Translations under genes and position numbers: made by a program
DNA from: Aneurinibacillus thermoaerophilus
GTDB lineage: Bacteria > Bacillota > Bacilli > Aneurinibacillales > Aneurinibacillaceae
DNA: 36,337 bases
Direction of reading: 5' to 3'
Assembly: GCF_900099925.1 (NCBI RefSeq)
Contig: NZ_FNDE01000036.1
Location: 1-36,337 of the forward strand
The notes under the pieces: model-generated
What the model was told of the DNA's origin: nothing
What the model saw: the letters and a program-made list of their open reading frames with translations, nothing else
Databases searched by the model: none
Shown here: positions 31,498 through 34,332 of the stretch, one piece after another
How positions within the stretch are numbered: the stretch's first letter is position 1
Layout: every line of letters starts with the position of its first letter

Positions 31498-32373
31498 ATG
31501 AAAGGAATAACGGTACGGGAAGCCTTGCAGAAGGCTTCTCGTTTTTTACGTGAAAAGGGCATTGAAGACGCCGCGTTTCTGGCTGAGTATGCTATCCGGC
31601 ATGCGCTGGGCTGGGATCGTACCCGGTTTATTTCGGGTATGTCTTACACGTTAACAGAGGAAGAGTGGGCAGCAATTGAAGCAATTTTGCTGCGGCGCAC
31701 CGCTGGGGAGCCGATGCAGTACATTGTCGGTGAACAAGAATTTTACGGGTTGGCATTCGAAGTCAATCCTTCTGTATTAATTCCCCGCCCGGAAACGGAA
31801 TTGCTTGTGGAAGAGATTGTTAAACAAGCGTTTAAATTATGGCCTGCTGATGCGGCGCTTTTCGCGGCGGATATCGGGACAGGCAGTGGGGTGATTGCGG
31901 TTACGCTGGCGGTTATTGGTGGAGCGAACTGGAGGATCACCGCGACCGATATTGCAGAAGAATCGCTTGCTACAGCGAGCCGTAACGCGAAGCGGCATCA
32001 TGTGGAAAACAAGGTTTCGTTTGCTCAGGGAGATTTGCTTGCACCGCTGCTGAATGCCGGGCAGCGCGTAGACATTCTTGTGTCCAATCCGCCTTATATC
32101 CCTTCCGCCGATATTATCGATCTAGATGTGCAGGTTAAGGACCATGAGCCGCGCCGCGCGTTAGATGGCGGAGAAGATGGCCTTGATTTTTACCGGCGCA
32201 TAATAGAAGGATTGGATTCTGTGCTAACGCGGCGGGCGTTGGTTGGATTTGAAGTCGGTATTCACCAAGCTGATACGGTTCGTTGTTGGCTTATGGAGAC
32301 AGGTCTTTTTCTAGAAACGTATATTGTGCGTGATCTGGCAGGTATTGGCCGTCACGTGATCGCGATCCGATAG
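31498..32373 (+). CDS. prmC: Release-factor glutamine N5-methyltransferase
   Basis: 291 residues; ATG after GAAGGAGC, which lies in the end of prfA. N-terminal helical domain binds release factors; the SAM-binding motif is ADIGTGSGVIAVTLA and the catalytic motif is N197-P-P-Y200 in VSNPPYIPSAD. Modifies the GGQ glutamine of RF1 and RF2. The N-terminal part of this family (REALQKASRFLREKGIEDA) is also clear. Formerly called HemK. Confidence 0.95.
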   Translation: MKGITVREALQKASRFLREKGIEDAAFLAEYAIRHALGWDRTRFISGMSYTLTEEEWAAIEAILLRRTAGEPMQYIVGEQEFYGLAFEVNPSVLIPRPETELLVEEIVKQAFKLWPADAALFAADIGTGSGVIAVTLAVIGGANWRITATDIAEESLATASRNAKRHHVENKVSFAQGDLLAPLLNAGQRVDILVSNPPYIPSADIIDLDVQVKDHEPRRALDGGEDGLDFYRRIIEGLDSVLTRRALVGFEVGIHQADTVRCWLMETGLFLETYIVRDLAGIGRHVIAIR

Positions 32374-32433
32374 TGAGCGTTCCTTTTCTACCTTTTCGCA
32401 AAAAGATAAATGTACGAGAAACGAAAATAGCGA

Positions 32434-32463
32434 GTTTATCCCCGGCCTCTTCTGTCCATACTG
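32434..32463 (+). promoter_or_regulatory. Possible SigF promoter of spoIIR
   Basis: GTTTA at 32434-32438 fits the SigF -35 (GywTA) and, 15 bases on, GTCCATACTG fits the spaced G..A.A.T pattern of the -10, with mismatches at the fourth and last positions. Location, 30 bases before spoIIR, is right and spoIIR is a forespore SigF gene in B. subtilis. Confidence 0.4.
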
Positions 32464-32492
32464 GTGAACAGGGAGAGGAAAGGGGAGTCGAA

Positions 32493-33083
32493 ATGATGAA
32501 AAAATATTATCTGCTATTTTTCGCCTTATTTCTTTTAATGATGAGCTGGGAAAGTCAGAAGGAAGCGCTGGCTGTCTTTACGAATCATTTCGTTCCGGAG
32601 CATTCGATTCGCCTGCGGATTCTAGCAAATAGCGACAGCCCAAAAGATCAGCAATTGAAGCGCTATGTGCGCGACCGCGTAATCGAGTCAGTGAAGCAAT
32701 GGGCTGGTGAAGCGGGAACAATGGAAGAGGCGCGTGCTGTTATTAGCAACCATTTACCAGAGTTGCAGGAACTGGTGAACAATGCAATTAAGGAAAAAGG
32801 TTTTTCGTATTCTGCGCGTGTAGAGCTGCGGCCGACCGAGTTTCCAACAAAGATGTACGGCACACAAGTATTTCCAGCCGGAAGGTACGAAGCGGTTCGC
32901 ATTGCTATTGGCAATGCTGAAGGACAAAATTGGTGGTGCGTGCTGTTCCCTCCGCTTTGCTTTGTGGATATTTCAAATGGGGACACGGCACATGCCGAAC
33001 AAGCGAAGGAACAGGGCAAAGATAAAAGCCAAATTAAAGTCCGATTCTTTTTGGTTGAATGGTTCCACAAACTATTTTCTTGA
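32493..33083 (+). CDS. spoIIR: Stage II sporulation protein R
   Basis: 196 residues from ATG 32493 after AAAGGGGAG; 40 in-frame codons upstream lie in the promoter region and are rejected. One N-terminal membrane helix or signal (YYLLFFALFLLMMSW), then SIRLRILANSDSPKDQQLKR, the hallmark of the family. Secreted by the forespore to trigger SpoIIGA, which cleaves pro-SigE in the mother cell. The typical C-terminal cysteines are represented by WWCVLFPPLCFVD. Position after prmC and before ywlC is conserved. Confidence 0.93.
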   Translation: MMKKYYLLFFALFLLMMSWESQKEALAVFTNHFVPEHSIRLRILANSDSPKDQQLKRYVRDRVIESVKQWAGEAGTMEEARAVISNHLPELQELVNNAIKEKGFSYSARVELRPTEFPTKMYGTQVFPAGRYEAVRIAIGNAEGQNWWCVLFPPLCFVDISNGDTAHAEQAKEQGKDKSQIKVRFFLVEWFHKLFS

Positions 33084-33140: not shown

Positions 33141-33434
33141 TTATACACAATGAATCGAATTATAATTATCCACAAATTATTCACATCATGTGGATATGTT
33201 GTTTATTGCAAACGGAAAAAAGAGCAGGTATAACTAAAAAAAGAGCATAATTAGCAGAATTGAGGGTTATTCAATGAAACAAGAAACGAAGTACTGGAAT
33301 GTGGATAAGTTTGTGGATGGATTAGAAAATTATCCACAAGTTCGCGAGGCGGCGTTGCTTTTGCGGCAAAATGAACTTATTGCTTTTCCTACAGAGACAG
33401 TATATGGACTCGGCGGTAATGGACTCGTGGATAA
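33141..33434. promoter_or_regulatory. Cluster of DnaA boxes over the start of ywlC
   Basis: Boxes matching TTATNCACA: 33141-33149 (TTATACACA), 33166-33174 (TTATCCACA), 33177-33185 (TTATTCACA), 33189-33197 (minus, ATATCCACA), 33300-33308 (minus, perfect), 33330-33338 (perfect), 33426-33434 (minus, TTATCCACG). Three are perfect copies within 173 bases, where one per 262 kb per strand is expected for a random 9-mer. B. subtilis has DnaA-box clusters at several loci away from oriC, one of them at ywlC (from memory of published surveys). Likely titrates DnaA or regulates ywlC. Some boxes are inside the coding region. Confidence 0.8.
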
Positions 33435-34332
33435 GACGGTGGAAAAGATATACATAGCCAAGGGACGACCGAGCGATAATCCACTGATTCTTCATATTGC
33501 CGAGCGCAAACAACTGGGCGAGCTTGTATCCGAGATTCCACCGCTAGCGGAAGCATTAATGGAGGCGTTTTGGCCAGGACCGCTGACCATTGTATTTCCT
33601 AAACAGCTTGGTGTGGCAATGCGGGCGTCTGCAGGGCTCAATACAATAGCGATCAGGATGCCGGATCATCCGCTTGCGTTGGCACTTATCCGCGCTTCAG
33701 GTTTGCCGATTGCAGCGCCGAGCGCCAACCTTTCTGGTCGTCCAAGCCCTACGACGGCGCAGCATGTACTGGAAGATTTAGATGGCCGAATTGCGGGCGT
33801 TCTGGACGGAGGATCGACCGGCATCGGTGTGGAATCGACCGTAGTGGATGTTACGGGAGATGTGCCGATGATTCTCAGACCAGGTGGGGTAACGGCCGAA
33901 CAAATTGCTGAGATTACGGGCGAAGTGAGGATGGATCCGGGAATTCTGGAAGAAGGTGTGGCTCCGAAATCACCGGGAATGAAATATCGCCACTATGCGC
34001 CTGCAGGAGACATGAGATTAGTAAAAGAAAATAGTGTGGAAGAGATGGTACGGCGCATTCGGAAGTTGGCGCACGAAGCCCAAGCGCAGGGTAAAAAAGT
34101 GGGGATTCTTGCTACGGCGGAGTCTAAATTATGTTACGGCGAAGACTATGTAGTCATTGCTTGCGGAAAGCGCAGTGACTTGATTAGCGTAGCCCGTCAT
34201 CTTTATGATGCGCTGCGCCGTTTTGATCAGGAGGGAGTGGATATGATTTTTTCTGAAACGTTTCCGGAAAGCGGCGTTGGTGCAGCGATTATGAACCGCC
34301 TGGCAAAGGCGGCAGGCGGCCGTTATCTATAG
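33274..34332 (+). CDS. tsaC: L-threonylcarbamoyladenylate synthase
   Basis: 352 residues (YwlC/Sua5 long form); ATG after GAGGG. Makes threonylcarbamoyl-AMP from threonine, bicarbonate and ATP for the t6A37 base of tRNA. The YrdC domain covers about residues 15-210: FPTETVYGLGGNG, KIYIAKGRPSDNPL, WPGPLTIVF, AIRMPDHPLA and PSANLSGRPSPT. A linker with SPGMKYRHYAPAG leads to the C-terminal Sua5 domain (about 240-352). Three DnaA boxes lie within its first 55 codons, so its expression may respond to DnaA. Confidence 0.94.
   Translation: MKQETKYWNVDKFVDGLENYPQVREAALLLRQNELIAFPTETVYGLGGNGLVDKTVEKIYIAKGRPSDNPLILHIAERKQLGELVSEIPPLAEALMEAFWPGPLTIVFPKQLGVAMRASAGLNTIAIRMPDHPLALALIRASGLPIAAPSANLSGRPSPTTAQHVLEDLDGRIAGVLDGGSTGIGVESTVVDVTGDVPMILRPGGVTAEQIAEITGEVRMDPGILEEGVAPKSPGMKYRHYAPAGDMRLVKENSVEEMVRRIRKLAHEAQAQGKKVGILATAESKLCYGEDYVVIACGKRSDLISVARHLYDALRRFDQEGVDMIFSETFPESGVGAAIMNRLAKAAGGRYL

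Follow-up and report, generated by a model that had tools for sequence, protein, structure and literature searches.

Why are seven DnaA boxes gathered at the beginning of a gene for tRNA modification, and do they serve that gene or the supply of DnaA? The question is raised by positions 33141-33434 of the window, by which is meant the whole stretch of Aneurinibacillus thermoaerophilus DNA that was analysed (36,337 nucleotides). Within these 294 bp the boxes extend over the promoter region and the early codons of ywlC (tsaC). The name of this gene and its function as a threonylcarbamoyl-AMP synthase are presumed, partly by homology, and the reading frame at 32373..33083 is taken to be spoIIR, the name given in the first-pass annotation.

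The box cluster at the start of ywlC

The region contains the following features, with the basis for each given in brackets.

32373..33083, + strand: spoIIR (presumed), the upstream neighbour here, outside the proposed device (open reading frame; name presumed)
33141..33149, + strand: DnaA box TTATACACA, exact to TTATNCACA (sequence match)
33166..33174, + strand: DnaA box TTATCCACA, first of the upstream triplet (match; register kept in relatives)
33177..33185, + strand: DnaA box TTATTCACA, second of the upstream triplet (match; relatives)
33189..33197, - strand: DnaA box ATATCCACA, third of the upstream triplet, facing the second (match; relatives)
33206..33234, + strand: putative sigma-A promoter of ywlC, TTGCAA-17-TATAAC (consensus scan)
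33262..33266, + strand: putative ribosome-binding site GAGGG (sequence)
33274..34332, + strand: ywlC/tsaC, presumed threonylcarbamoyl-AMP synthase, 352 aa (open reading frame; homology)
33300..33308, - strand: DnaA box TTATCCACA in ywlC codons 9-12, where the protein reads V-D-K (match)
33330..33338, + strand: DnaA box TTATCCACA in ywlC codons 19-22, where the protein reads Y-P-Q (match)
33426..33434, - strand: DnaA box TTATCCACG in ywlC codons 51-54, the least conserved of the in-gene boxes (match)

Judged against TTATNCACA, the published DnaA-box consensus as given in the accessible part of PMC4447404, five of the seven boxes are exact and two carry one mismatch. Against TTATCCACA three are perfect and four carry one mismatch, and all seven boxes described in the first-pass annotation (three perfect, four near-perfect) were recovered. 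The upstream triplet has the orientation + + - at -108, -97 and -85 from the ATG, with start-to-start spacings of 11 bp and then 12 bp, and is accompanied by an additional box at -133; its third box stops 8 bp short of the putative -35 element. The in-gene boxes each start on the third base of a codon (9, 19 and 51), and the putative promoter sits between the upstream and in-gene groups. The promoter scan is crude, being a consensus match alone, and several loci have no convincing promoter; among the eleven loci of family f1, the TTGCAA and TATAAC hexamers are identical in five (the window included), similar in three more and absent by the consensus scan from L003, L009 and L010.

Local dinucleotide shuffles of the 334-bp stretch around the cluster yielded far fewer boxes. 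With at most one mismatch to TTATCCACA, the seven observed compare with a shuffled mean of 0.12 and a maximum of 2 (2000 shuffles); with at most one mismatch to TTATNCACA, seven compare with a mean of 0.56 and a maximum of 4 (1000 shuffles), and the five exact matches to TTATNCACA with a mean of 0.02 and a maximum of 1. The whole 36-kb window has 24 boxes at one mismatch or fewer against 8.1 expected. A chance origin of the cluster was ruled out by the shuffles and this whole-window expectation. The feature that marks a cluster of the Bacillus subtilis type, a ywlC/tsaC orthologue with several DnaA boxes over its 5' end, is thus found here; the cluster is real, looks functional and corresponds to the ywlC site known from B. 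subtilis.

Distribution and register of the boxes among relatives

Conservation was followed in 140 of 299 genomes of the same class, the Bacilli, picked to spread over its families and representing 50 of them, with the conserved peptide F-P-T-E-T-V-Y-G of the ywlC product as the anchor for register. Six loci were left out before the counts: L012, L146 and L178 (anchor peptide missing, or a gene piece only), L017 (no match), and L037 and L051 (anchor missing). Over the 140 genomes, the interval from -200 to +250 of ywlC (63 kb in all) contains 288 exact boxes and the flanks (351.7 kb) contain 61, which makes the boxes 26 times as dense at the ywlC start. At least two exact boxes are present in 81 genomes, one in 10 and none in 49. 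When one mismatch is allowed, 41 genomes still have no box, 81 reach five or more and the other 18 range from one to four, although a one-mismatch consensus may miss weaker sites and loci scored as empty may still have some. For B. subtilis a search of this kind was judged too strict for DnaA sites, according to the accessible part of PMC4447404. The box counts are two-peaked: for the most part a genome retains the entire cluster or has lost all of it. Thirty families have at least one member with two or more exact boxes, 18 have none in any member and two consist only of members with a single box.

Exact boxes number three in Aneurinibacillus danicus, whose ywlC is 80% identical to that of the window, five in Sutcliffiella halmapala and four in Halobacillus litoralis. 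No exact box was found in the loci named as Paenibacillus (two), Cohnella (one), Neobacillus mesonae (one) or Lachnospiraceae (three), and among eight Trichococcus-like loci (seven with that title and one titled Sedimentibacter whose N terminus is similar) a single box occurs in one. Beyond the class, the 28 loci examined across the phylum (L244-L271) were among the best-scoring of 244 matching genomes and include two from the window's own class; the other 26 have no exact box at ywlC, and in nine of these there are near-boxes, one or two each. On the ywlC gene tree, which was made by a quick method, is weakly resolved and does not separate gains from losses, at least 12 changes of state are needed against a shuffled mean of 41, and four are forced by starred branches. 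Family f11 has six exact boxes in each of L174 and L175, from two genera, and no exact box and two near-boxes in L177, which is of another genus; this contrast is a loss or gain inside one family. In G010, ywlC is found as two contig pieces (L011 and L012), each at or near a contig end, which is probably a matter of assembly.

The boxes also keep a fixed position relative to the codons of ywlC. At one mismatch or fewer they recur at anchor -85 in 52, -55 in 47, +103 in 38, -73 in 27 and +53 in 24 of the 81 cluster-bearing loci, whereas at most two of the 49 clusterless loci have a box at any of these five positions, a comparison that is partly circular since cluster presence was scored over the same stretch. 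The register of the codon-9 box is kept in 52/81 loci (35 exact) and that of the codon-19 box in 47/81 (26 exact); the codon-51 register (anchor +41) is found in 5/81, and the neighbouring +53 register in 24/81. Upstream, the inverted box pair with 12-bp spacing is found in 16 families. When six loci from the family, picked for being already in gene orientation, are aligned, the boxes form conserved islands within an otherwise variable 5' region, with some one-base departures. The distance to the preceding gene also differs, with a median upstream gap of 150 bp where the cluster is present and 53 bp where it is not; by a crude open-reading-frame rule, gaps below 50 bp occur in 10/81 cluster-bearing and 23/49 clusterless loci. 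A longer gap is to be expected if the cluster belongs to ywlC's own promoter.

Some clusterless genomes have tight groups of boxes elsewhere, at 1487-1516 of L302 (G209), beside an amino-acid ABC transporter gene; at 1444-1483 of L303 (G143), on the tsaD side, at an ABC-F gene's 3' end; and at 1015-1044 of L305 (G143), upstream of a guaB-like gene. These gene names were assigned by eye and are presumptive. It is possible that in clusterless genomes the ywlC cluster has been replaced by another.

Proposed control of ywlC and possible holding of DnaA

The cluster is probably part of a conserved region through which DnaA binds and regulates ywlC, and which perhaps adds to DnaA buffering. In the proposed mechanism DnaA would bind cooperatively to the upstream triplet abutting the -35 element and to the box group in the first codons, so that the promoter is held between two DnaA-bound groups. 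High free DnaA would then repress ywlC, and with it the step of t6A modification of tRNA that makes threonylcarbamoyl-AMP, and, as a by-product or second function, several DnaA molecules would be kept near the origin. For Aneurinibacillus we infer the binding, the repression, the identity of the marked promoter and any buffering or titration by analogy. That a promoter lying between DnaA groups would be the mechanism is well supported by this analogy and by the anatomy of the site. To our knowledge, no physiological reason for DnaA control of ywlC has been given.

The analogy is with B. subtilis, where ywlC is described as repressed by DnaA in the accessible parts of PMC4447404, PMC12112137 and PMC8203912. 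The region upstream of ywlC is the sixth listed in-vitro DnaA region in the available text of PMC4447404, with nine sites and a Kd of 0.25 uM with ATP, and expression of a ywlC-lacZ fusion drops in a mutant whose DnaA level is raised about twofold (PMC12112137, from the part available). A cluster at ywlC's own promoter fits this repression, and the suggestion that the B. subtilis ywlC cluster is the counterpart of the one in the window is supported by the same two sources, PMC4447404 and PMC12112137, as far as their accessible text goes. The two clusters share the gene, the location over the promoter region and gene start, and the presence of many boxes. Binding and repression have been shown in B. 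subtilis, whereas the Aneurinibacillus cluster is known from its sequence. The register also differs, being + + - at -108, -97 and -85 with boxes at codons 9 and 19 in Aneurinibacillus, and exact boxes at -150, -105, -25 and +39 in G234, which is presumed from the N terminus of its YwlC to be related to B. subtilis.

The cluster might instead be mainly a DnaA sink or timing element, kept for its distance from oriC and its number of sites, with the control of ywlC incidental, but this is rather unlikely. In B. subtilis the joint deletion of six clusters causes early initiation, and the return of one of them at various places gives partial relief (PMC5295017, in the part available), the advance being reported as strong only with all six gone; the deletion effect is likewise found in the accessible text of PMC13220808 and PMC11019786. 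A sink role is thus drawn from the literature on these six clusters, jointly deleted in B. subtilis. According to the accessible part of one of these reviews, no cluster identified in B. subtilis plays a significant part in the control of initiation (PMC5295017). Chromosomal position at first seems to favour a sink. Thirty-three relatives have dnaA, ywlC and tsaD together on a single contig; with that contig treated as circular and distances given as percentages of it, ywlC is found on the left arm in 32 of them, at 2-20% from dnaA, and tsaD on the right arm in 31, at 5-21% except for two at 35% and 43%. Twenty-four of the 33 were counted as cluster-bearing, among them G114 and G179, which have no ywlC box count and have rounded lengths. 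In clusterless genomes, however, ywlC is on the left arm too (9/9), at a median of 3.4% against 6.1% with the cluster, so that the position may be plain synteny and is not diagnostic of timing; origin-proximal position as the mark of a timing device was rejected for being the same with and without the cluster. In G257, moreover, ywlC is on the other arm, yet three exact boxes are present. A sink would need neither a fixed codon register nor closeness to a promoter, and the fact that the boxes stay with the 5' end and codons of ywlC speaks for regulation of ywlC first. The best reading is therefore an old DnaA-repressed promoter, which may also hold DnaA near the origin. The description of the cluster as far from any origin genes holds within the 36-kb contig but not in relatives, given the 2-20% distance of ywlC from dnaA. 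The boxes do not lie beside dnaA-dnaN as those of an oriC do; the genome's own dnaA-dnaN region, with its boxes, is on a separate contig, G000:C22 (genes named by eye).

Another t6A gene, tsaD (gcp), has a second conserved cluster at its 3' end. This cluster does not precede tsaD itself, which is a further point on the side of a sink. At least two exact boxes are found there in 37 of 60 genomes (35 of the 57 with both counts, plus G114 and G148; G027, with a match and no locus, is excluded); these 3' ends, 30 kb in total, contain 139 boxes, and 206 kb elsewhere contain 43. By counts uncorrected for kinship, 29 of the 57 genomes have both the tsaD and ywlC clusters, 12 that of ywlC only, 6 that of tsaD only and 10 neither. 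The genome studied here has three exact and three one-mismatch boxes after tsaD, at about 1645-1749 of L317 (G000:C84), and its only three same-direction pairs of exact boxes within 30 bp are two at ywlC and one at the end of tsaD. Like ywlC, then, the gcp (tsaD)-ydiF cluster of B. subtilis is broadly conserved at a t6A gene and is present in this genome, but it sits at a 3' end rather than at a promoter. Around rlmH (yydA), from -300 to +650, at least two exact boxes are found in 15 of 30 genomes, this one included; in L318 (G000:C22:1500-4000) boxes flank rlmH on both sides. The genome also has two exact boxes at the start of an mnmE-like gene (named by eye) and in the preceding gap. The sda/yqeG cluster of B. 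subtilis shares with that of ywlC a DnaA-controlled promoter and several boxes, but is narrow in distribution: the 400 bp that precede yqeG contain two exact boxes or more in 8/30 genomes, and no exact box was found upstream of yqeG (yqeG/sda) in the genome studied here. The datA, DARS1 and DARS2 loci of Escherichia coli, which act on DnaA, are likewise DnaA-box regions away from oriC. According to the accessible part of PMC13220808, B. subtilis has neither these loci nor IHF.

Six of the eight strongest B. subtilis regions thus have counterparts here, namely the two at oriC and those at gcp, trmE, ywlC and yydA; of the remaining two, yqeG/sda has none and ywcI was outside the comparison. The four counterparts outside the dnaA region (gcp, trmE, ywlC and yydA) are at RNA-modification genes, a pattern that was seen post hoc and may be a coincidence, with mnmE lying beside oriC anyway. 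A bolder proposal, which is doubtful, is that the Bacilli inherited ancestral extra-oriC DnaA clusters at tsaC (ywlC), tsaD (gcp), rlmH (yydA) and mnmE (next to the origin), through which the level of DnaA would set t6A synthesis and perhaps other modifications, the N terminus of YwlC having been rewritten for DNA sites rather than for the protein. If true, translation capacity would be tied to replication initiation through the DnaA level.

Neighbouring genes and the N-terminal tail

The gene order prfA-prmC-spoIIR...ywlC-mntP, as read from matches to the window's reading frames, is conserved among relatives, although in some loci one or another neighbour was not found; the names prfA, prmC, spoIIR and mntP are presumptive. 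The first-pass annotation had proposed a tie of the cluster to sporulation; spoIIR adjoins ywlC upstream in the window, and matches to it lie upstream of ywlC in many relatives. That spoIIR connects DnaA with sporulation is nevertheless very improbable. In L155 (with one exact box only), L164, L166, L167, L169, L174 and L175, prmC ends some 90-300 bp before ywlC, no spoIIR match is found within the available stretch, and the boxes are kept; in several others, such as those of family f14, spoIIR ends at least 600 bp upstream. The cluster is kept at the start of ywlC whether the upstream gene is spoIIR, prmC or another, and in following ywlC without spoIIR it argues that sporulation is not the link.

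The claim that the boxes constrain the early protein sequence has been borne out, both in codons and in part of the peptide. As the coding boxes had helped to define presence, the first codon test was partly circular and was repeated with presence judged from upstream boxes alone, giving 82 loci with boxes and 48 without (10 with near-boxes only were excluded). The loci in all of these tests are related by descent, so that Fisher values overstate their independence. In the N-terminal tail of the 82 loci, V before D or E is written GTG in 103/111 cases, against 771/2037 in the rest of the gene, and the base preceding that codon is T in 102/110; Y-P is written TAT CCA in 33/33. In the 48 loci without an upstream box GTG is used in 8/17 cases and Y-P is absent. 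An exact box lies within the tail in 56 of the 82 loci and in 3 of the 48. Deeper in the domain, where the peptide is the identical I-V-H, the DNA is box-like in 27/61 cluster-bearing loci (15/25 families) and in 1/37 others (1/19 families). The view that the +103 near-box is a by-product of the conserved I-V-H peptide was rejected, the codon bias being found there too. The residue after V, I or L followed by D or N is K or N in 45/55 cluster loci and in 1/9 without the cluster, where P is commonest (four). The bias in codons and in the next residue indicates that the DNA sites shape the codons and part of the peptide.

That the boxes are due to chance or arise unaided from a protein that needs V-D-K and Y-P-Q is scarcely credible and was rejected by the codon tests, for although V, I or L followed by D or N near the N terminus of 9/49 clusterless loci suggests that part of the peptide may predate the boxes, codon choice contradicts it even for an identical peptide, K or N follows the motif in 45/55 cluster loci against 1/9, and boxes are also intergenic. 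The check for conservation beyond coding need has therefore been made among relatives, with boxes kept in many, intergenic boxes present and codons biased. In the 49/140 genomes with no exact box, either the device is dispensable or the consensus misses sites.

No report of the conservation of the ywlC cluster, or of a link between DnaA and t6A, was found in a literature search in which subscription journals were thinly covered. This is weak evidence that class-wide conservation and codon constraint are new; the type of cluster was already known. The papers found describe the ywlC site in a single species, and it now extends to thirty families of the class. The cluster is a clear case of regulatory sites shaping the sequence of a protein's N-terminal tail, and the lineages with and without it provide a ready comparative system for the purpose of a DnaA cluster away from oriC. 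Its conservation in register with the codons implies that the control of ywlC by DnaA, or the holding of DnaA, has been under very long selection.
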